Positions 1 to 56,541 of a stretch of DNA of 64,000 bases are shown here, piece by piece. Numbering within the stretch: position 1 is the stretch's first letter; every line of letters starts with the position of its first letter. The stretch is from Galerina marginata (taxonomy: Eukaryota; Basidiomycota; Agaricomycetes; Agaricales; Galerinaceae), in contig JAECYW010000023.1 of the NCBI GenBank assembly GCA_023014335.1, positions 558,001 through 622,000 on the forward strand, in the 5' to 3' direction. The notes beneath the pieces are model-generated. The model worked only from the letters and a program-made list of their open reading frames with translations, did not search any database and was not told the origin of the DNA. A program made the translations under genes and the position numbers.

Positions 1-1837
1 TGACCGACCTGGGATTTGTACGAGATTCTTTGCGATTTATCCACCGTAGTTTTCACGATTGGACCGTTTCAGATGAGATAAGAAAAGGGAATAATTCTGC
101 CATTCGTGTCAGAGGTTTTGCATAAACGGTACTTAGACTTCGCCTTTATGAATGTTAAATTTACCCGAGTAACCAAGCTAATCACAATCGCTATTGATGA
201 CGATCTCATAGAGTCCCTCTGCACTGATAAAGGTGCTTCCTTTTATTTTGCTATATTTTTTGCTCAACTCAGAGGACAGTTCTCGACAGTTTGTTTCGCC
301 ACTCGTAGGTTGCGAAATGGTTTCTGCATAACACAGCCCACAATTAACAGATGTGTTGCTCCAGAATTCCTCCACAGAAAGCAGACAGTACGATTGTGTC
401 TCATGCAGGCAAGCTAATTATCGAGGCATATGCAAACTGCGTGAAGGGTAAATGTTGCTTTACACCTGCGACAAGGTCGGAATACTACGTGGAATATTTC
501 ATGGAAGCCCCAGGACTGTATTTAAAGTCATATAAGCGCCGATCAATCCAGGGTCTGCGGTTGGGGGAAAAGGCGATAGACGCCCAATTGATCGCTCGGT
601 AGGTAGTACGCTCCGATCCTCATGTTCGAATTCCTGAAAATCACTACTCATAAAATGATCGCATATCGTCCTCATCAGAAAGCGATCAACTTGCTTCGAA
701 ACCAACCGGATTGGATCAATCCTCCAAAGCAAGCAGGTCAGCAGACCGGTCCAAGTGGCGATCTGCGGTAGGGAACCGGTCCGCCAAGAAGGACACGCTT
801 AGTACCACGAGTGAGTGTGCACATGAACTGGGTTTCACAAATCATAAACCTTACGGATTACCCTACGTGAATAGCAATGTGAAAGCCCGTTTTGAGCAAG
901 TTGAAGCCCAGGGAGAAGATAAACAGGTAAAGCAAGTGCAGAAAACGGCACAGATGTGCACATCCCGAAATCTGTCGAAGGAAGACGTCGTGGTGATAGC
1001 ATTGTAGCCACTTGTTGTGCATTATCAAAAGCTTTAATTAATGACCACAGGTTGTTACTAATCCTGGAGATGAACGCGATGAACCACGACGTTTTTATGC
1101 AGGTATCATGTATAAGAGTTACTATTAGCCTTAGCAGGACAAACCGCATCAGTTAACTTTATTGGCTGTGTCGATTAATGTAAGAGTTACGACTCGGATG
1201 CAACCAGACATACTTGAACCTACAGTACTTTTCGGGAGGAACGGGAAAGCATTATATTATGTCTGGGAAAGACTTGGCTACAATTCCAAAGTGGCCGGCG
1301 CTAATCGTTGAGCTGCTTAAGCGCTCGTAGCCTCAATTCGTACTTCGATAAGAAGCAATTACGTCTGGTCTGTATTCTTGTTGTATTTCTCTTCCACTAC
1401 ACCGATATTTGTACGGAACACAAGGAAAGTAGAGCCAGAGCATAATTTATGCCCTGGATCATCACGCCGCGTTCGTGGTGCACGCTTGTGTTTTCCGTTG
1501 ATGCGGTTGATTAATGTGCAGCACAGGATATAGCTTCAACCGCATCCCGGTAGAGATCCAGTATATCACAAAAATATACTTCAACCACGTTTGCCATGAT
1601 TCCGCGATTCCATTAAATTGCTCTTCCGTGTCCTAACGGCCGTAGGCCTCACGTTGAAATTCGGGCTTCCGCAGCCTAACGGATCTGCGATTAAATAACG
1701 GGCTATGGATGGAACACTTACTCGTACGGAGAGAATAACTCGAGGCGGTTGCTATTTGGATTGCACCTCAGGCATCAGGGGCACAAATCCCACTGCGCAG
1801 TCCTTTGGAATTTCCATGTATGACGTTCTGGGCAGAA
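1..1837. other. gene-free flank of the helicase element
   Basis: No open frame here has a recognisable domain, a plausible exon chain or biased codon use. The longest frames are about 100 codons and overlap on both strands, as expected by chance. The sequence is mixed AT-rich DNA with no clear tandem repeat. It ends in the left copy of the target duplication of the transposable element that follows. Confidence 0.6.
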
Positions 1838-1846
1838 CATCCCAGC
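1838..1846. repeat. left 9-bp target site duplication (CATCCCAGC)
   Basis: CATCCCAGC directly precedes the left inverted repeat and recurs exactly at 7476-7484, directly after the right inverted repeat. A perfect direct repeat abutting both ends of a perfect inverted repeat defines the insertion boundaries to the base. Confidence 0.93.
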
Positions 1847-2085
1847 TAGTCTCGGATACCCAGCCTCTTTGGGCGCCTTCCCAATTTGGGTCCCTTCCCT
1901 TCAGAGTCTGGGAACTGATCAACGGTCTCAAGGGCCTTATGCGTTCGGGCTGTTCGGGGTTTTTTTCGACTCTTGTTCAACATTTTCGGGACATTTAGTA
2001 GACACGTGATCACGCGGGAAACGCGGTGCGCGTCGCGCTGATTATTTCCCCTTCAACCATTCACGTCGTTCTCGTCGTATCCCTT
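1847..2085 (+). repeat. left terminal inverted repeat (239 bp)
   Basis: Read base by base against the reverse complement of 7237-7475, including a run of seven T, with no mismatch found. Identity stops abruptly after ATCCCTT at 2085. The repeat ends 60 bp before the helicase start codon, so it probably carries promoter sequence for that gene. Confidence 0.95.
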
Positions 2086-2145
2086 CATTTTTTCAATGCT
2101 ATATTTCTTATAATTATCTACAACCCATTCTATCGATGTTAATCT
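2086..2145 (+). promoter_or_regulatory. short leader between left inverted repeat and helicase ATG
   Basis: This 60-bp AT-rich tract contains TATATTTCTTATAATTA just inside the inverted repeat. It is the only unique sequence upstream of the helicase, so the core promoter must lie here, in the repeat, or in both. No transcription start was mapped; this is inference from layout. Confidence 0.4.
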
Positions 2146-4358
2146 ATGTCTCAGTCAACTCCCACACCTTTTTCACCTCATAAGCGACGAAGGCTCAATG
2201 ATGAAAATCGGACTTCATCCCCAGTGACACCCGCACCCACAAGGCCTACAATTCCTTCAGCAACCTCCAACTCTACAGCATATCAATTAATTTCTACCCC
2301 TGGAACCGCTCTCTCTACGCCGAGACTACCTTTTGCTGACAAGAAGAACCGCACCCGCTTCCAGAACGGATATGCCGTAAAACCGAAGACACCTTCCTTT
2401 AAGCCTTATTCTCTCAACAACCCCGGCCATCCTAGGCAAAAAGCCTATGCATTCGAAAGGTTCAAGCGACTCAATTCAATGGAACCTCTTTCCGCAGAGG
2501 AATGGAATCAACGGGCTCTCAAACATGGCATTTTGAAGGAAGGACAGCAATTGAGGGATTATCAGATCGAGGCTGCAAACTTCACCATTTCTCGGGCAGG
2601 AGATTTGTGTGTGATAGCTCCGACTGGTGCTGGGAAGTCTCTCTTATGGGTTCTGCCTTTGCTTGCTCAGAAGACGGGCATATCTTTGGTCATCATCCCC
2701 TTCACGTCGTTGGGATACCAAGGAGAAGAACGGTGCGAATTTACAAAATAATTGCTTGCTTTCTTACTGAATATTCTCTGATCAGCCACCGTAACTCTGT
2801 GATAGAATGCTCGTTTATTCATTCAGGTGCCTCGGATCCTGCAGACCTCGAAAAGATCGCAAAAGGCGGCTCGATGCACGTGGTTTACACCTGTGTTGAA
2901 ATGCTCGAGACCCCGTCATTCGCTTGTGTTCTGCACTCGGAATCGTTTCGCGCGCAACTTTCGGCAATTTATATCGACGAAGCACATACTATTCATGAAA
3001 GTGTCTCGTGGCGTCCTGGATACACCCGTCTTCATGTACTGCGAAAAATTATAGGCAATGATATTCCATTAATTCCGCTTTCTGCCACCCTTCCAGCTTC
3101 ATATCGAAAATCCATTGAAATCCACGCAAGCTTGAAGGCAGACTACCGACTCATTAATCTTGGCAACTTTCGCCCAGAACTTTCGACAATCATTACTCAG
3201 ATGCAACACGACGCAAATTCTTTTCAGGATTTAACCTTCACCCTTCCGTGGAACGCGTCCGAGGATTCAATCAAACAAACTTTGATCTACTCGGACAACC
3301 TAGATATGTTGACTGACATGTTTTGGTGGTTTCACGCTCGTTTAGGTTCGTTGAAGCTTCCTCCGCACCTCATCGACATTCTCCATGCCGGACTATCAGA
3401 ACCACACCAAAAGCTAAGCACCAATGATTTCATCTCCGGAAAGACCAAAATTCTGCTTGGCTCAGACAAAATAGGAGCAGGCATGGACTTCCCAAACGTA
3501 CAGTTGGTTGTGCAGTACCGCTGTCGAGATCTTACGCTCGTGAAATGGGAACAACGTCGTGGGAGAGGAGCTCGTCGAAAAGGCAGCAAGGCAGTGGGGG
3601 TTATTCTCGTTGAAAAGTCTATGACAGGTGATGATGGTCAGCTTTCCGTCACATCGCCCAACTTCGAGGATCCCGGACTTCTGGACCTCATTCACACGTC
3701 AGAATGTCTGGAGTACACGGTTGACACTCACCTTGAAAACCCACCACATTTTGATGACGCGGGCAATCTTATAACCTGCTGTCATACCCGCTGTTCAAAC
3801 TGCAACCCCAGCCTTTGCCTTGATCAGGACCTCGAGTGGATTATGGAAAACCCCGGAATTGAGGACCCGCAAGAAAAGCCGCAGTCTCGTCCAGTAACCA
3901 CCGACAAAGAGAAGGAAAAAATCTTGAAGGCCCTGACAGATTGGCGTTTCAAGATATGGAAAGACGAGTGGATGCAAACTTGGCCCAGCTACGGACCAGA
4001 TTCACTTGTTAGCGACTCCGATTTACGTGAAATAACCAAGCGTGCTCACCAAATCTCCAACCTCGAAACTCTCCTTTCCTTCACTCACATTCCTCATGAA
4101 CGAGAACTTGCATCACCCCTCTTCAATGCGCTCCAACAAATTCTATCAGACTTATTTGGTCCGCTCCCCCCTCAGGAAACCATTCAACCCAATACTACCA
4201 GCACTCCTTCTATCTCACCTGATCAACCCGACATGTACCAAGAAGTTCGGTGGATGGAACCTGAGCATGCCGGAGATATGGAACCACAGGCGGTTTCAAG
4301 GCCAAAAAAGCGTAAACGGACAATCCTTTATAATGGCGAGGCAATACTAATCTTTTAA
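2146..4358 (+). CDS. RecQ-like DEAH superfamily-2 DNA helicase of the transposon
   Basis: Two exons, 2146-2732 and 2786-4358, joined across a 53-bp intron (donor GTGCGA, acceptor ATCAG), give 719 aa. Residues 1-110 are Ser/Thr/Pro-rich with a basic KRRR patch, a possible nuclear signal. Walker A is APTGAGKS at about 158-165, Walker B is DEAH at 260-263, followed by SATLP. The second helicase lobe has GAGMDFP and the arginine-finger box QRRGRGARR starting at about 452. A short Cys motif (CHTRCSNC) lies in the C-terminal third. I see no HRDC domain. The expected role is ATP-driven strand separation at element ends or repair intermediates during transposition. The intron is supported by an exact frame match and by helicase homology on both sides. 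It is convergent with the DUF6589 gene. Confidence 0.9.
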
Positions 4359-4396
4359 TTTACGGTTATGGTTCAGTCCTTTAAACTCTTGATACC

Positions 4397-7163
4397 TTAT
4401 TCGCTTTCATCGTCGGTGTCTTCTCCTGTAGAATGACGAATAATATCGCCAAATTCATCAATCTCCTCGTTGATTGTAAATTGTGTTCGCCGTGAATCTC
4501 TGCCTGACGAAAGTTCGCGATCCAGCTCATATTCATTTGATTGCTCTGTTGTATGTCGGGTTCGAAGGCGGAGAATATGGCGCTTCAAGTGATTGTAATG
4601 ACCACCGCTGCTCGTTCCTGCTAATCGGATGCACCCTGTGCGATACAAATCAACCCATAGATGCTGGGAGAGTTTGTCAAACCTAAAGTCAAATATTTTT
4701 TCTTTGAGAAGGTGCTTGACAACAATTTCAATGTCCTTGTGTTGTGAGACGTGGCTATGTTGCTGATTCTGCCTTTCAATATCTAGGTCTGCAAAAAATT
4801 GGTCAGTGAACTGCGAAACATGTCCCATTGCTGGAGTAATTTTAGATAGGTGGTCAGGTGTTGCATTTGAACCATGAGCACGTTCTTTAATCCTGTCGTT
4901 GAGGTGTTCCACCCGGATATCAGTAGGTTTGAATCCTCCAGGCTTTCCACTTGGATTAACGAGCATTCCGTTGAACGCAACCTGAGCATAGTCCTTGGGC
5001 CAATCATGAATGACATTGTGGAGAAGTTCCATGCACTCGTTTGCATAATTGTAGCTCCCCGCAGCATAAAACATTGGCATCCAGAATTTGATCATGCGCT
5101 GAATACGCTGAGGATGGCCATGCTTAATCGCGTCCTGCATTTCTCGAAGGGTCATAAGATCATGCATAAGAAGAACAGCATGTCCGCATTTTGTGTTTCC
5201 TGGGAGTATTTTCTGGTTCAAAGCTTCGAGGCGCGTTGGTGAGGGTAAAAGGTAGTTATCAACGACTTTTGTTGCCAGTTCTTGTAGATCCGTGAGTGTC
5301 TTGACTTTGTTCGATAAATCGTCAGGAGAAAGGGCCTTGAGAGCAGTTACCGCAGCCGTAATTGTTAGACTTCGGAGGATAACATCAAAGAATCGAAGCC
5401 ATGCATAATAATCAACCTTTTGAAGGTTAATATTTGATTTCCGGTTTGGCAAAATGTCGCGAAGAGTCAAAAGACTAATGGGATCAGCTGTCGCAGAAGT
5501 TCCCCATGCATTTTTCCCTTCAGCTTCAATGAAGTTCAAACAAAAATGCATTAAACCGCTAACCATTGAAAAACTTGATAAGTGGTCAAAGCGATGCTCG
5601 GAGCGATCAACAGCCCGCTGGTCTTGCGCGGCACGATCGCGAACAGTAGTCAAACGATCACCAAGCACAGTAAACATTGTGTGCTCGAATGTTTCCTTTG
5701 GAATGTCGAGGATTTTTCCGAAGTAATGCTCGAGAACGACCATATTTCCTCGGGTTGATCCCTGTTCTTGGTCAAATGTAGGCAGGTAATACTCTTCTGT
5801 TTTCTGCGGTTTAATTGCCATTTGGTCGTCCAGGACTGGGATAAATGGGCCATGCTCTGAAAATGCCTTGATATCTTGGGCTAAGATATTCTGAACATGA
5901 ATAATGGCATTGGCACGGAAGGCCTGCTGGTCTACAGAACTTGGAAGAATGTCCGACAGGGATTCAGCGGGTGGGAGGTCATGGCGAGTCCTTTCAGTCT
6001 TGGAAAAGCGACCAACTGATGTTATTTGCATGGCATCAGGACCACCAGCAGGTATTGGCAGTATAATGAGGAGGGCAGACACTTCATCGTGGGTGATGGA
6101 ACCATGGAGTGCACTTGATTCCCATGCCCGAGCCGTCCAGTTAAAATTGTCATACGGAAGCATTTTGATCTTGGTTGGGTCATTCGCAGCTTGTTTTGCG
6201 AGAAGTGCTGAACTCTTGCTAATTGCAGTTATTGCGCGGGTTTGAAACGGATAGGATGTTGTGAGAGCCAGGTGATTGCAAAATTGAACAAGTCGCTTAG
6301 GTACACGGTTGTCCCAGAACAACAAGGAGTTCATTGCTGCATGATAGTTGAGGCGTTGGCTTCGCAGATTTAGAACCATTGAAGTGATTAAGGTTCGTCC
6401 CTAACATGCAACAATCAATATATAGTCCAAAGTTTTAGATAAAGATAAAGATTTTGCGTACTGCGTCAGGATTTCGACTGCCCTGATTCAATGGCCTTTC
6501 ATCCTTGTTGATTATAGCCTTCAAAATGCGTTGGAGGTGTGGGGTAACTCGCTCGTATCGCTCAAGTAGCTCATGAATGCGAAATGTATTTAGCATCGTA
6601 ACATCCACATTTTGCGAAGACACACGAAGGAATTTTGCATCATCCTCATGTGGACCCTCAGAGGCACGATTGGAGAGCCAACTAGCCTCTCTTGCACATG
6701 CAGAAGCTGCCTTCCTGACTACCCACGCCGTCATTTCACGATCCCTCAATCCACCGCAGAGATCCCACCACAAATCCATTATCTCCAGATGTCCGCCGTC
6801 AGCTAGAAAGATGTTTGCAAAATTCTTGATCCCGCCATCGTCCGAGGTGAAGACAGCCTGAGAAAATTGCCGAAGAGAAAACCTTGAGAGGGTATCGCGC
6901 ATGAATTGCAAGACCAATCGGGCTTTCTGTGTAGCAGATAGCGGAGACCGTCGTTTTAAGGGAGCCTGGACATAAAAAAAATCATCATCTTCAGAGTCAT
7001 CAGAAAGTTCAGTTGAAGAAAGGAGGATGGAGGGCTCCTCAAAGTCATCAGATGCTGGGATAGGAGATGGTGAACGAGGAGGAGAGCTTTCGGCAATGGG
7101 TTCTTCATGATCTTCATCCTCGGGTATCCCATGTGCAAAGAGGCGAAATGTGTAACGATCCAT
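4397..7163 (-). CDS. DUF6589-type protein, candidate DDE transposase
   Basis: Two exons, 7163-6462 and 6400-4397, join in frame across a 61-bp intron (donor GTACGC, acceptor GTTAG) to give 901 aa. The N-terminal 240 residues are acidic and Ser-rich, then helical. From about residue 248 (LRSQRLNYH) the protein follows the basidiomycete DUF6589 pattern: an FWDNRVPKRLV-like block, YDNFNW, GDRLT, HDLMTLREMQDAI, GSYNYANECMELL and VNPSGKPGGF...VEHLN. The acidic residues in YDNF (D318), GDRLT (D482) and NECME or VEHLN (E689/E692 or E732) have the order expected of an RNase-H-fold DDE triad; that reading is mine. An unspliced start at 6379 would lose the N-terminal quarter. Its place inside intact inverted repeats makes transposase the best guess. 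Confidence 0.85.
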
Positions 7164-7236
7164 GAGTCAAAGAGAGTTTAGACAAAGCAAACAGCTTTAT
7201 TAAGGAATTAAAGGAGGCCTACAAAGTTATCAAGGC
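7164..7236 (-). promoter_or_regulatory. short leader between right inverted repeat and DUF6589 ATG
   Basis: Only 73 bp separate the DUF6589 start codon from the inner edge of the right inverted repeat. It is AT-rich with a TTAATAAAG stretch. Because both genes start right after identical repeats, each repeat probably supplies the same promoter, giving matched expression. Inferred from layout. Confidence 0.35.
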
Positions 7237-7475
7237 AAGGGATACGACGAGAACGACGTGAATGGTTGAAGGGGAAATAATCAGCGCGACGCGCACCGCG
7301 TTTCCCGCGTGATCACGTGTCTACTAAATGTCCCGAAAATGTTGAACAAGAGTCGAAAAAAACCCCGAACAGCCCGAACGCATAAGGCCCTTGAGACCGT
7401 TGATCAGTTCCCAGACTCTGAAGGGAAGGGACCCAAATTGGGAAGGCGCCCAAAGAGGCTGGGTATCCGAGACTA
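7237..7475 (-). repeat. right terminal inverted repeat (239 bp)
   Basis: Reverse complement of 1847-2085 with no mismatch found by eye. It ends CCGAGACTA at 7475, immediately before the right target duplication. Confidence 0.95.
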
Positions 7476-7484
7476 CATCCCAGC
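7476..7484. repeat. right 9-bp target site duplication (CATCCCAGC)
   Basis: Exact copy of 1838-1846, immediately outside the right inverted repeat. The empty site would read ...GGCAGAACATCCCAGCCTGCTAG... Confidence 0.93.
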
Positions 7485-38023: not shown

Positions 38024-40161
38024 CGTCGCCAGATAGTGTCTGAGGAAGTCGCGATGGGGCAGCCGTAAACGCGTGCAGTTCTTGGTCTTTATATACCCGT
38101 ATGCTAGAAAAGATGTCTGCTCCGGGTAAGTAGACTTAATTGAACAAGGCCTCGAAGGATCTACTTTGACCATTTTCGGGTCGCAGGATGTCACCAGGGG
38201 CCATTTTGGCTCTCGTTGATTTTCTTGGGATTCGAAGAACGTGCTGGACAGGACAGTGGGGTGTGAAGTTTAGTTGATGAAGGCACGGAGCGTGAGTAGA
38301 TTTAGCGAGCGGTTGCTAAAGAATCATGTCGATGATAGATTTTAGGCCAGGGCGTTGCTTTGTGGAACTGAGTTTGTACGGCGGTAGACGGTATGTAGTG
38401 TCCTGGTCTAGTCTGTGGGTAGTAGTAGTTGGTTAGACGGTTTACTTCTTTCGTTGTTTGGATTCCGAGGCCTATGGGTGCAGAGATAGCAACATCTGGG
38501 TGTGAAGGTCGACTTAGTGGAGTCTGGTTTTGAGAGCGGTGCATCATGGTTCACTGGCCCAGAGTAGGATGGCGTGTGCTTGAAGCAATGGCCGACGGCC
38601 CATGGGACTCCGTCGATTGAAAAATAGTTGGCGCCCGGTTGTTAAACGAGATGACTCTCGTTCTGGAGAATTTACACCTCTGCGTCTGTCCATGTTGGTT
38701 TTTTGGGGTAAGTGGGCAAGCAAGAATGAACGAGGAGACAAAGCAACGCGGATGTAGGTTGTGTGCAAAGTCCGATACGCAGTTTCCGCGGGGTGAAGCA
38801 AATGGGCCAGAGATGGTTGAAGAAACGCCAATCAGATTAGGAAGGCAAAGATCAAAAGTCGAAATCTACGGTATGTCTTTATCTGACGATTTCGTTGGAC
38901 TATCTGGCATTGCGAGTGCCTGATGGGAGGCTAAATGATTCTTGGCGCCTTTTTCTGCAGGACTGCAGGGCCACTGGCACTCTTATTGTCAGGCGGCTTG
39001 ATAGAGTATGACATTGACAAGCCTCACCTGATAGTTTTAGCCACAGTCAAAATTTTATTGAAGTTACGTCATCGTCGCGCCTCCGAACTTTTTTTTTAGA
39101 ATCAGCACAAGTCGGTTCATTATATGAACCAGCCCGTCTGGTAGCACTTCAAGCTACTATGCCATGGCCTGCAGAAGGAGAAGATGCGGTATTAGGCCAT
39201 CCGGCTACATCGAGCGCAGTATTAGGCCTCTCATGGATATGGGAAGAATGGACGGTGATCGTTTACTTACAGTTAACCTATTGGCAGAGCTTGGCGAGGG
39301 TGCTGCATAAAGGCCATGGGATCGTCACATGAGACCTGGCAATTGAAGAAAACTGCCTGAGCTCCATCTTGACTCTTGATACAGTTGTGGAATCACACGA
39401 CCAAGTTTGAAAAAATGAGAACTCGACGCCTCCGAGTCTGGTCCATGGCCAGCCTCGCACATATATAAATCGAAGTGCAAGAATGGAATAGCAACGAAAG
39501 GTCGCATCTTCTAGAAGGACCGGTATACGCCCTGAATATAGGTTTTCTAAACATTGAAGACGATCAGAGATGTGTTCTTTGAGCGGAAGGAACTTGGGAA
39601 CAGATCATAGTAGCGTACATGCCTTAGACGACTGGCCGTCACGCGATCCGCCTTTCTCCTGGGTAAACTGCTGACTGATAATTAGCGTTGTGCATCTTTT
39701 GGTTCTTTTCCTCACAGAACATAAATACCTCTCCCAAAAAAAAGTGGCCGAAGTGGTGGGTGGAGGAAAAACATAGAATTCGTGTATGTTTCACGACAGA
39801 AAGTTGAACCTGTGCTATTTGTATTTGTTGGGCGGCGTCTAAAATTCTTGCCTTCATCCCTCTTCTCCTGATCACCACCACCATCTCTATCCACAAGGTC
39901 ACAATTCCCTCTTCTTTGGCCGTTTATGGGGCCAGAAAACAATAATTAACGCCGTTTTAGACAGATACATCCACTCACCGTGACTTGGTGACTCGAAGAA
40001 CGATCTTACGCGGCTTATCACGACGAAAACGACAGCAAAGATTCCGGTAGTTTCTCCAGGCCGTGGTGGGTTTCTCCAGTTCCATGGGCTGTCGTTGTGA
40101 AATGCTGACCAGGTGACAGAAATTGTAAATTGAAGGATTCTGCCGAGTCCTTCTTGCTCCC
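38024..40161. other. 2.1-kb divergent intergenic region
   Basis: Separates the minus-strand oxidase from the plus-strand deubiquitinase, so it should hold both promoters. Frames inside are short and without homology. A CAACATCGTCG context surrounds the oxidase start. No further feature seen. Confidence 0.5.
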
Positions 40162-43100
40162 ATGTCCGGCCATCCAGCTTATCCTCACCCAGGCCCCGGA
40201 CCTTCTTCTTATTACCAACCGTCTCCTCCTCCTCACCATGCCTATGGGAATCACAGCCCCGGACCGCGTCAAAATTACTATCCCTATGCGCCACCTCCAC
40301 CCCCACACATGAATTCCCACCAGCCTGCGCAATACCATCACCAACCTCCACCGCAGTCTAGGGGAAACCATCGCGGCGGCGGCTCCTACAACTCGCGCGG
40401 AAACCACCACTATCACCACTACCACCAGCAACAGGCCCCATACGCCCACTCACACGTCAACCCTCCTCTCGGGGTCCACCCAGCCCAACATTTGCCATAC
40501 TCACCCCAGTCGCCTGCTAAATATAACCAACCGTTTTCGCCTTCTTATCCATATCCTTCGCCTTCTGCGCCTGTTTTCACGCCATCCTGGCAGGCGCAGC
40601 AACAGCCTATATCGCCCCTGCCGAAACAGCTGTCAATGCCACCTCAAAATATTCACTCAGGAATTTACGAACCTCAAGCAGCCTCACCACCTTCATCACA
40701 GACAATCGAAACGCCACAGAGCCCCGCCGTAGAACCTGCTGTAGCTGAAGGTTCGTCCGAGGACGCCAAAAGTGAATCGTTGTCTCCATCTTTAACATCA
40801 CCGTCATCATCTCTCCCGCCTGCCCCGTCCTCGGAACCAGCCCCTCAGCCTCAGGCCACTTCATACTCACAGATGGGAACGATATCAACGACATCGGATT
40901 CAAATCCTCCTCCATCGCCTCCAAACACTTCTACTCCTCCACGCAAAACGGTCGTCAATCCCACCGCAAAATGGGCCATTTGGTCTCGTCGACCACAAGA
41001 CCCGTCCCACGCACCGAGTATCATCATTTCTCCTCGTGCCCGCCCACCACCGGATGTCATCCAGCAAGCCATTGATCTCAAAACCCCGCCACGGTCCCTT
41101 ACTTCGTCGCCTGTTGCCACGAAAGCCGTTCCTCCGCTCACCAACGGAGATGGGGCACCTTCAGAGCCTGAGGAAACAGAGACATCAACAAAAGACGCCC
41201 CAACATCTCCTCTACCCTCCAATTCTTCTGATGAAATAGCAGGGGTTGCTTGGTCCTCCCAAACCAACTCTACCGTGCCTTCATCTTCAGTTACAGAGTC
41301 CACTGATACCCCTACTATTCCTGGATCGCCAGCGTCGTCACATACCTCGTTATCTGTGGCGGGGACTCCTTCTAAAGAAGGGAAAGATACCGTCGTCGCT
41401 CAGACTGAGAAGGAGACCAAGGACGTCGCTGACTCAGTAGCTGCCTCAACTAAAGTTGTGGAAAAACCAGCGGCCGCCGCTGAAGAAAAAACTGCTGAAG
41501 CTGCCCTTCCAGACGCAGCAATTGTAGCCGTCGAGGCTACCACTACACCAGGAGCAGGGGTACTAACCCCAACTCCTGATACGGACACCGCCACATCCCC
41601 CGTCGTCGCTGCTCCTCAACCAACCGCCGCCACCCCAGCCGTCGCTGTTCCTACAGCATCTTCTCCATCCGTACCACCCATCAAAAAATCTTGGGCATCG
41701 CTCCTCCGCCCAGCCTCCTCTCCAGCGACTTCCGCCACCGGCGTTCCAGTGCGCAACGCCCTGCCCACATCCTCCGTCGTCGGCTTCTCTATTCCAGCCG
41801 CTTCTGCGACGCCAGCCGTCCCGGTGTCGCCAAGCAAAAAGAGCGACCTTATCAACCTCCTGACTGCCGGCCCAGTGCCAGCCCTCACCTTTGGCAGTGG
41901 GTTCGCCGCAGCTGCTGCTGCAGGAACAGGAGCAGCAGGAACGTCGACGATGATGAAGATCCGCCCACGGGGTCTGATTAACAGCGGCAACATGTGCTTC
42001 GCCAACTCGGTCCTACAGATCCTTGTATACTGCCCGCCGTTCCATAGGCTCTTTGTTGAGCTGGGCAAGGTCCTTGTAGGCCCTGTCGTCGGTACTGGCA
42101 TTAGTGGTAATGGCAGCGGACCCGTCAACGGGAGTGCCAACGTCAATGGGGTTGTCAATGGCACCGCCAAACCAGAATCAGCGACTCCGCTGGTAGAGGC
42201 CACCATTGAGTTCCTGAAAGAGTTCTTGGAGGAGAAGAACAAGAAGGGCAAGTCGAAGGAGCGCCCGAGACTGGAGGTCGTTGGCCGTGGTGGGAGTGGG
42301 GGTGCTAATGGGAGTAATGGGTCTGCGCGGGCGAAGGGCAAAGAACGGGAAAGGGAGGCGGAAGCGGAGGAGGATGACTGGGACGGGGAGTCATTCTTGC
42401 CTACCTATGTGTATGATGCGATGAAGGCGAAGAAGCGGTTTGATAACATGCGGGTGTGTTCTTTTTTATTTTGTCTTCTGTGATTCATTTTTGACATGTC
42501 CTTTTTTTTATTCGTCTTTCCTTAGGGCGGCCACCAGGAAGACGCTGAAGAATTCTTCGGGTTCTACCTCGACACACTCGAAGAGGAGTTGTTGTCCATC
42601 CTTCACTCTGTCAACCCGACACGGCCGACCAAGGGCTCGTCGGGTCCTGCACCTGTTGAAGAGAAAGAGGAGGCTGCACCACCGGAAGACGATGGGTGGT
42701 TGGAAGTGGGCAAGAGGAATCGGATGGTCATCACTCGCACAGTACGTCTTGTCTTGTCTTTGTCTGCCTCAGTCTTTTTGTATTTTTTTTTGTCTTTGAC
42801 ATTTATCGATCTTTGACTTACCTGTTACTTTTATTGTCCGTCTGTAGATAAAAGCCACCGAGTCTCCTATAACGAGAATCTTCGGTGGTAAATTCAGATC
42901 CACCCTCCGTGCGCCAGGACAGAAAGATTCTGTCGTCGTTGAGGACTGGAGGTCCTTGAGATTAGATATCCAGGTTCGTATCCTAGCCTTTCATCATACC
43001 CCCCAGTCTTCTTACCGACCTATTTACACAGCGAGAGCAAATCCACACCATCCAAGATGCATTATCATACATCTCACACCCGCAACCCGTGCAAGTAACG

Positions 43101-54992: not shown

Positions 54993-56541
54993 TCATCCAC
55001 GGGCGGCTTGGACTTGAGGCGGTCCGTTATTCGCACCACCGCGACCGCCTCCACCTCCTCCACGACGAGGCCGGCCTCCTCGTCGGCCATATCCACCCCA
55101 CCCACCAACATAACTGCCAGGTCCTAACAGCCCGACACCACCAGGCTCGCCAAACGTCGCGACGTTCTTCTCTCGCTCCTCCTCGCGTCTGTTCCTCCCT
55201 GCACCGCCTGCACCACCACGTCCCCTTCGGCCCCCGTTTCCTTGTGGTGCACCACCACCACCACCGCCGCCGCCACCTCCGCCAGACCCCGACGCGGGCG
55301 TCGCAGACGACGACGACAGCGAATCAAAGAACGACTTTTGCGGGTTATACGCCGTCTCCGCTGCCGGTTTTTCAGCCTCGGCCTCGCCGTCGTTGGTCCC
55401 GTCCTCCGTGTTCGCTTTCGTACCGCCTGGCGAGACGGCGGTCTTGTCGAATTTGGCATTACTGCTCTGGAAGTCGAAGTCTGCTGTAGGGATCTTCATC
55501 CCTTCCGCTTCGCCACGACCACCACGGTGGCCGCCTTGCCCACGCCGCCCCCCGCGGGGGTTGTGAGTCGTGGTATTGGCGTTGCTCACGCGGAGGTCAC
55601 CGAGAGCGCGTTCGACGGTCTCTAGGGAGGCGGCGGCGGTGTGAACGGGGTTCGGACGGCGGTTGACAGCGTTTGGGGGTGGTCCGCCGCGATTGATGGC
55701 AGCTGGCGGTGGTTGGGCTACGACAGGCTGCACTTGCTGAGGCATCTGGGCTGCGACGGCGGTTTGAGGCTGGACGCCTTGAGCGGTAGCCGCGTATGTT
55801 GGGACCGGGGGTTGGGGCGGAGGAGGGCCATTGGCTTGGTGTTGAGGGGGGTAAGGAGCGTAAGGTTTGGGTGCGGGTCCTCCTGCCTGTCAAGGAGAAA
55901 AAATATGAGTACTAGGCCAGTCGGGTTAGGAGGGAAAAACACGAAAAAGGGGGTCAGAAGGAAGGCAACGGAAAATTCCACATGGGTTTTGCGCTCTCGG
56001 ACAAATGTTATGTATTTTTACATCCGTAAATGGGTTCATCGTGATGTTTTTTTTTGGGAGGGTAGAAACAAAGAGCCAAGAACGGATACGTACCCCAAGA
56101 ACTGCTGGATCATCATGGACGTTGTGTTGCACCGGAGGCGTTTCGTCCACTGAGAGATCTTTGACCTCTGAGGCACGGAAGATGATGTAGGCGTATGGAT
56201 CTTGGACTGGGGCAATAAACTGGTTTGGAGGCCTATGTTGGGTTCAAGGTGTCGTCAATGACTCGGTCCGTGTTGGTAGCATCAAAGGCTTACCGCCGTT
56301 GTTCGGTGCCCATAGAATATACTGTAAAATGTTCAGAAAACACCCTGACAAGGGTTGTGAAAGACTCTCACCATTAGAAAGTTGAATAGTCGAGGCCTGC
56401 GGGTCAATGCCCGCTAAGATGCCTCTGTAACGAACATCTGAATGAGAAATGAGAGATATCGGTTTCCTGGGGCAAGGTGGTTAGTTTGAAGGTAAATGTG
56501 GCTATGATGAGCAGAGCATACCCGATGAAACTGAGAGCCAT
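54993..56541 (-). CDS. SCD6: Scd6/Lsm14 family mRNA-binding translation repressor
   Basis: Five exons: 56541-56522, 56466-56372, 56321-56294, 56232-56094, 55886-54993, giving 391 aa; introns 1-3 are 50-61 bp and intron 4 is 207 bp. The N-terminal Lsm14 domain (residues 1-80) has the family's GKPISLISHSDVRYRGIL, ID...STIQLSNVYSMGTE and PYAYIIFRASEVKDL. A Pro/Gln-rich linker follows, then the FDF box around residue 231 (DFDFQSSNAKFDK), a Gly run, the TFG box (about 339) and a C-terminal RGG/Gly-rich tail. Scd6/Lsm14 binds mRNA and eIF4G or Dhh1-type partners, represses translation and assembles P-bodies. The gene starts with a 20-nt first coding exon, easily missed by gene finders. Confidence 0.93.

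Follow-up and report, generated by a model that had tools for sequence, protein, structure and literature searches.

A 64,000-nt window of the Galerina marginata genome (GenBank assembly GCA_023014335.1, contig JAECYW010000023.1, positions 558,001 to 622,000, forward strand) carries what is very likely a complete and probably still competent cut-and-paste transposon, AcademH-type by anatomy, with a DUF6589 protein as its DDE transposase and a RecQ-like helicase as the fixed partner of the latter. The element occupies positions 1847-7475 of the window (5,629 bp). Its terminal inverted repeats, 239 nt each, lie at 1847-2085 (plus strand, starting TAGTCTCGGATACCC) and 7237-7475 (minus strand, same sequence as the left one), and comparison of the two arms gave 100% complementarity with zero mismatches. 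The 9-bp target-site duplication CATCCCAGC flanks the element at 1838-1846 and 7476-7484. The interior consists of two open genes that converge tail to tail, their ends 38 bp apart, each with one predicted intron; no open frame longer than 123 aa is present in the element outside the exons of these genes. The helicase gene (719 aa) is located on the plus strand at 2146-4358 (exons 2146-2732 and 2786-4358), and its GT-AG intron at 2733-2785 is the sole frame-keeping solution found there. The DUF6589 gene (901 aa) is located on the minus strand at 4397-7163 (exons 7163-6462 and 6400-4397), with a predicted GT-AG intron at 6401-6461; a GC-AG alternative also keeps the frame and yields a protein one residue shorter. 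The DUF6589 product matches PF20231 in Pfam with an E value of 2.9e-96, whereas the helicase product contains the DEAD and Helicase_C domains and has as its best sequence relatives in PDB proteins named ATP-dependent DNA helicase Q5 (E 9e-9). The preliminary description of this DNA, made from the sequence alone, was accurate in all these respects: the 239-bp inverted repeats without mismatch, the perfect 9-bp duplication on both flanks, the two intact convergent genes filling the interior, the 901-aa length of the DUF6589 protein, and the identity of both gene products.

A BLAST search of the host assembly (69.3 Mb) with the terminal repeat, in which all copy numbers are lower bounds, detected two additional full copies, one on contig C43 and one on contig C2, neither of which has a mismatch to the window copy across 5,629 positions. 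The flanking duplications of these copies are 9 bp (CAAACATGG) and 8 bp (ACAGGCAC) long. Because the additional copies are identical over 5,629 bases and differ in their flanking duplications, the repeats and the structure seen in the window are not due to chance. The element is real, young and complete, and these data show both its structure and its recent mobility, as proposed in the preliminary description. The check suggested there, a count of copies in the same assembly with a look at their duplications, gave the same ends in the two additional full copies and duplications of 9 and 8 bp. Altogether, there are at least three full copies and one contig-end fragment: contig C1 begins within the terminal part of another identical copy (L012, positions 1-185), and the assembly probably broke there at a further copy. 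A search with the flank to the left of the window copy (window 1300-1846), the only one of the three loci examined in this way, found no empty site in the assembly, since this flank is single-copy.

The genome also contains a 1,017-bp internal-deletion derivative with a 9-bp duplication, and three micro-insertions of 56, 63 and 74 bp that are built from both element ends and have 9-bp duplications, one of these set off by four bases. Two of the micro-insertions consist of element ends alone (L013, C34:3318988-3319050, 63 bp; L014, C23:3619710-3619783, 74 bp); in L014, TACA is found between the duplication CTCCTCGAG and the left end. The third (L015 501-556; C12:3946009-3946064) is a 56-bp perfect palindrome of both ends, which share 6 bp where they meet, and is bordered by a 9-bp duplication. 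It looks like either a minimal mobile unit or the remnant of an insertion that microhomology repair has collapsed. For the analysis of duplications, only inverted pairs of ends were used, and the single ends L075, L076 and L077, which have no partner, were dropped. Among the 14 insertions with both sides read, including relatives with TAGTCTCG ends, nine show exact 9-bp and three exact 8-bp duplications, one an 8-bp duplication with one mismatch, and one a 9-bp duplication set off by four bases; there was no 10-bp duplication in this set. L069 was excluded as a separate insertion, being a duplicate of L068: in L068 (C12:4160683-4161576) and L069 (C14:623258-624151), a non-autonomous element of 834 bp with TAGTCTCG ends agrees, flanks included, in 893 of 894 positions, which represents either a stretch of unmerged haplotypes or a segmental duplication of recent date. 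No enrichment of the short pattern TAGTCTCGNNNNCC was seen in the genome, with 113 matches vs 117 when the pattern was reversed as a control.

The helicase is a fixed partner of the DUF6589 gene, and the evidence of this pairing is quantitative. The genome contains 45 PF20231 matches, which correspond to 30 loci, and 24 helicase loci found with four helicase queries. Of these helicase loci, 15 have a DUF6589 locus no more than 6 kb away, compared with a chance expectation of 0.13, and all 15 pairs, which include the three identical element copies, are convergent. A 16th helicase locus adjoins a DUF6589 match that falls below the cutoff (21.2 bits; cutoff 27); it is counted among the nine helicase loci that, together with fifteen DUF6589 loci, are unpaired under the 6-kb rule. 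Complete elements with TAGTCTCG ends are formed by three further pairs, namely C23 2375286-2380748 (repeats of 132 bp at 98%, duplication GGTCCACTC, helicase 58% identical), C23 772507-778562 (repeats of about 145 bp, that is 146 columns, at 79%, duplication GAAAGGACC) and C5 2054537-2060794 (duplication CGAGTGAG, 8 bp). Inverted repeats also enclose the DUF6589/helicase pairs at C23 2922730-2928979 (244 bp at 85%) and C43 2280784-2286456 (236 bp at 100%), with no readable target duplication at either; at the C24 and C39 loci, no convincing inverted repeat was found in the stretches examined. The proposal that DUF6589 and the helicase form one module is thus upheld by pairs that recur inside inverted repeats elsewhere in the genome, and neither of the two outcomes that had been named as contradicting it, other copies without these ends and no pairing within inverted repeats, was observed. 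In the region C43:2280714-2297407, two DUF6589/helicase loci share identical helicase fragments and are separated by 11.6 kb; in the first of these loci the left inverted repeat is doubled and the ends read CAGGCTCC in place of TAGTCTCG.

The pairing extends to other genomes, for which we analyzed the best 120 of 155 DUF6589 relatives, the best 120 of 317 helicase relatives, and the best 120 of 132 matches from a profile search with diverged rows. Among the matches listed, a sharp score gap separates the best 73 helicase relatives (at least 301 bits), all named members of which come from mushroom-forming fungi, from bacterial-type RecQ (at most 73 bits). With contigs of equal size carrying both a helicase and a DUF6589 row taken as a proxy of co-location, 37 of the 73 helicase relatives were matched to one of the best 120 DUF6589 rows, and the species agree in 27 of the 27 matched rows that are named; two matched helicase rows, P0167 and P0174, possibly represent one contig from two sources. 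Of the 47 bacterial-type RecQ rows, which served as a control only and were checked against the initial 120 DUF6589 rows but not the 17 later ones, none was matched. Addition of these 17 new DUF6589 rows raised the number of matched helicase rows to 40 of 73. In Arthromyces matolae (H0H93_015956/015957) and Candolleomyces aberdarensis (EST38_g13408/13409), the gene numbers of the pair directly follow one another. The distance matrices of 41 pairs (window included) are correlated with r of 0.864, a value reached in 0 of 2,000 shuffles, yet only 18 of the 41 share the same nearest neighbor; host phylogeny could contribute to this correlation. The nearest named relatives among the matches listed belong to Agaricomycetes, for example Pholiota molesta, and a scan of viral contigs yielded no relative.

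The DUF6589 protein looks like a DDE transposase, judging from its predicted fold and the conservation of residues through which catalysis would proceed. Hermes (hAT) and P element transposases possess an RNase H-like core split by a large helical insertion, and they are the best structural matches, in a comparison with PDB, of the predicted models, in which the DUF6589 protein likewise adopts an RNase H-like fold with such an insertion. Three acidic positions are conserved in DUF6589 proteins (sets A1 and A4, with 69 and 64 sequences, respectively, the window sequence in each, representing a subset of those found), and are the proposed catalytic residues: D318 (motif YDNFN; codon 6149-6151, minus strand), within a strand of the model; D482 (motif GDRLT; codon 5657-5659, minus strand), directly after a strand; and E732 (motif DIRVEHLN; codon 4907-4909, minus strand), in the helix that follows the helical insertion. 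These predictions support the original suggestion that DUF6589 is the DNA-cutting enzyme. As candidates for the third residue, E689 and E692 (motif NYANECMELL) were rejected, these positions not being conserved: at the former, the C18, C10, C3 and C43 families have Tyr, and at the latter, C43 has Lys and C23 2924881 has His, whereas the Glu of the D-x3-E motif is kept. The PF20231 match on the protein P0005 (residues 382-785) begins only part of the way into the predicted RNase H-like fold, leaving strands one and two, as well as the first of the conserved Asp residues, outside the match; redrawing the start of the Pfam model could expose the family as a transposase. In the open-access papers searched, subscription journals not being among them, 'DUF6589' is used nowhere, and 'PF20231' occurs only in an unrelated optics text.

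Classical RecQ helicases contain RQC and HRDC domains, in contrast to the helicase of the element, for which Pfam scans (the window exons separately, and the full-length relative P0121) detected neither, the domains seen being DEAD, Helicase_C and ResIII; PF09382 and/or PF00570 are present in most bacterial-type RecQ rows among the matches listed. Comparison with the relative at C23 2375286, computed on blocks with local identity of at least 35%, gave pS of 0.83 (synonymous sites saturated) and pN of 0.27 for the helicase (445 codons), and pS of 0.81 and pN of 0.20 for the DUF6589 gene (396 codons). In both cases pN is far below the saturated pS, and therefore both genes are maintained; the helicase gene is under purifying selection. 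The start codons are located 60 (helicase) and 73 (DUF6589) bases inward of the left and right repeats, respectively, and therefore the 239-bp repeats probably carry the promoters of both genes.

The mechanism that we infer from these features combines promoters in the repeats, repeat binding, transposase catalysis and a helicase step. The DUF6589 protein, with its putative DDE/RNase H fold and D318, D482 and E732, would bind the 239-bp inverted repeats and cut at the TAGTCTCG ends, and the cut ends would be joined to target strands staggered by 8-9 bp, giving the 8-9-bp duplications. The convergent helicase would most likely unwind or remodel DNA at the ends, the target or repair junctions; the earlier proposal that it opens DNA is plausible.

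The element most likely belongs to a transposon lineage that is already known. AcademH, a lineage of Academ DNA transposons, was reportedly described by Kojima in 2020 in Mob DNA 11:15. Elements of this lineage have terminal inverted repeats; those found here are 239 bp at 100%, and two relatives have repeats of 132 bp (98%) and 146 columns (79%). AcademH is presented as the helicase-encoding Academ lineage with target duplications of 9 or 10 bp vs 3 or 4 in AcademX (PMC10045372), and as low-copy with Basidiomycota among its hosts (PMC10799480). Judged against these descriptions, the element resembles AcademH in having a helicase (here DEAD plus Helicase_C) beside the transposase, in its low copy number (at least three full copies) and in its basidiomycete host, and agrees only in part in the length of the duplications, 8 or 9 bp in the 14 insertions. 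We consider the assignment to AcademH, made by comparison with published descriptions, likely by anatomy; on the same descriptive basis, the preliminary choice of AcademH as the nearest type agrees with the published helicase and roughly with the duplication length. The diverged-row profile search toward animal and XPG-bearing Academ proteins returned PF20231 proteins only (best 120 of 132), and the named ones are from mushroom-forming fungi.

Other affiliations fit less well. TTAA is the insertion target of Kolobok elements, which leave duplications of 4 bp, whereas here the duplications are 8-9 bp and of varied sequence; duplication length would thus exclude KolobokH, a Kolobok-superfamily type carrying a RecQ helicase, which we regard as scarcely credible. 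PMC9587614 does describe KolobokH from fungi with a DDD/E transposase and a RecQ helicase, as in our element, and one rhodophyte Kolobok with the helicase on the complementary strand; the published helicase lies downstream of the transposase domain, in contrast to the separate opposite-strand gene found here. A hAT- or KDZ-type (Kyakuja-Dileera-Zisupton) element with 8-bp duplications that carries a helicase by happenstance would account for the nearest solved folds, those of Hermes and the P element, and for the 8-bp duplications among the insertions. We deem it very unlikely: the DUF6589 protein has no sequence match to hAT or P element proteins in the Pfam or PDB searches, Pfam-A, which includes a KDZ transposase profile, returns DUF6589 alone for the main exon at E of 1 or less (a profile miss that does not exclude either type), nine of the 14 duplications are exactly 9 bp, and the helicase partnership is repeated across DUF6589 families. 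A helicase partner is not known for the hAT and P element families. In PMC12730594, KDZ elements are, like ours, basidiomycete DNA transposons with accessory enzymes, and Zisupton has 8-bp duplications; the accessory gene there is a TET/JBP dioxygenase rather than a helicase, and the described Kyakuja families lack the inverted repeats present here.

The roles of the two proteins can also be read differently. That DUF6589 is an accessory end-binding protein, the moving being done by the helicase or a host enzyme, is again very improbable given the predicted DDE-like fold, the three conserved acidic positions, and the lack of any further open frame above 123 aa; Helitrons are ill-matched by long inverted repeats and duplications. 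In favor of this interpretation, the Pfam name gives DUF6589 no function, and helicases do belong to Helitrons (PMC12730594). Somewhat less improbable, and still unlikely, is that a DUF6589 element acquired the helicase a single time and carries it along with no function of its own. Accessory genes, TET/JBP dioxygenases, are known in fungal DNA transposons (PMC12730594), and 15 of the 30 DUF6589 loci show no helicase; against this, the pairing and the tail-to-tail order persist in families with helicases just 26-33% identical to that of the window, the distances of the two proteins parallel each other, and the helicase is under purifying selection.

Elsewhere in the window, ordinary host genes are represented by a frame at 40129-42483 that encodes the beginning of a ubiquitin carboxyl-terminal hydrolase domain and a frame at 54993-55889 with an FDF domain.

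The analysis adds two things: a proposed role for DUF6589, that of a DDE transposase with named residues, and quantitative support for a fixed helicase partner. A family that is common in mushroom genomes and is listed in Pfam as of 'unknown function' thereby gains a specific, testable role, and the identical full copies provide a good entry point into the role of a helicase in cut-and-paste transposition. More tentatively, and with the odds rather against it, all of DUF6589 (PF20231) might represent the DDE transposases that move helicase-linked transposons, a family missed in annotation since its Pfam model begins past the first catalytic Asp, with helicase-dependent transposition in which the helicase sets the 8-9-bp stagger; this broad reading, if true, implies a helicase-dependent cut-and-paste mechanism. 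For the annotation of mushroom genomes, our results suggest that DUF6589 and these RecQ-like genes count as transposon genes, not host genes.
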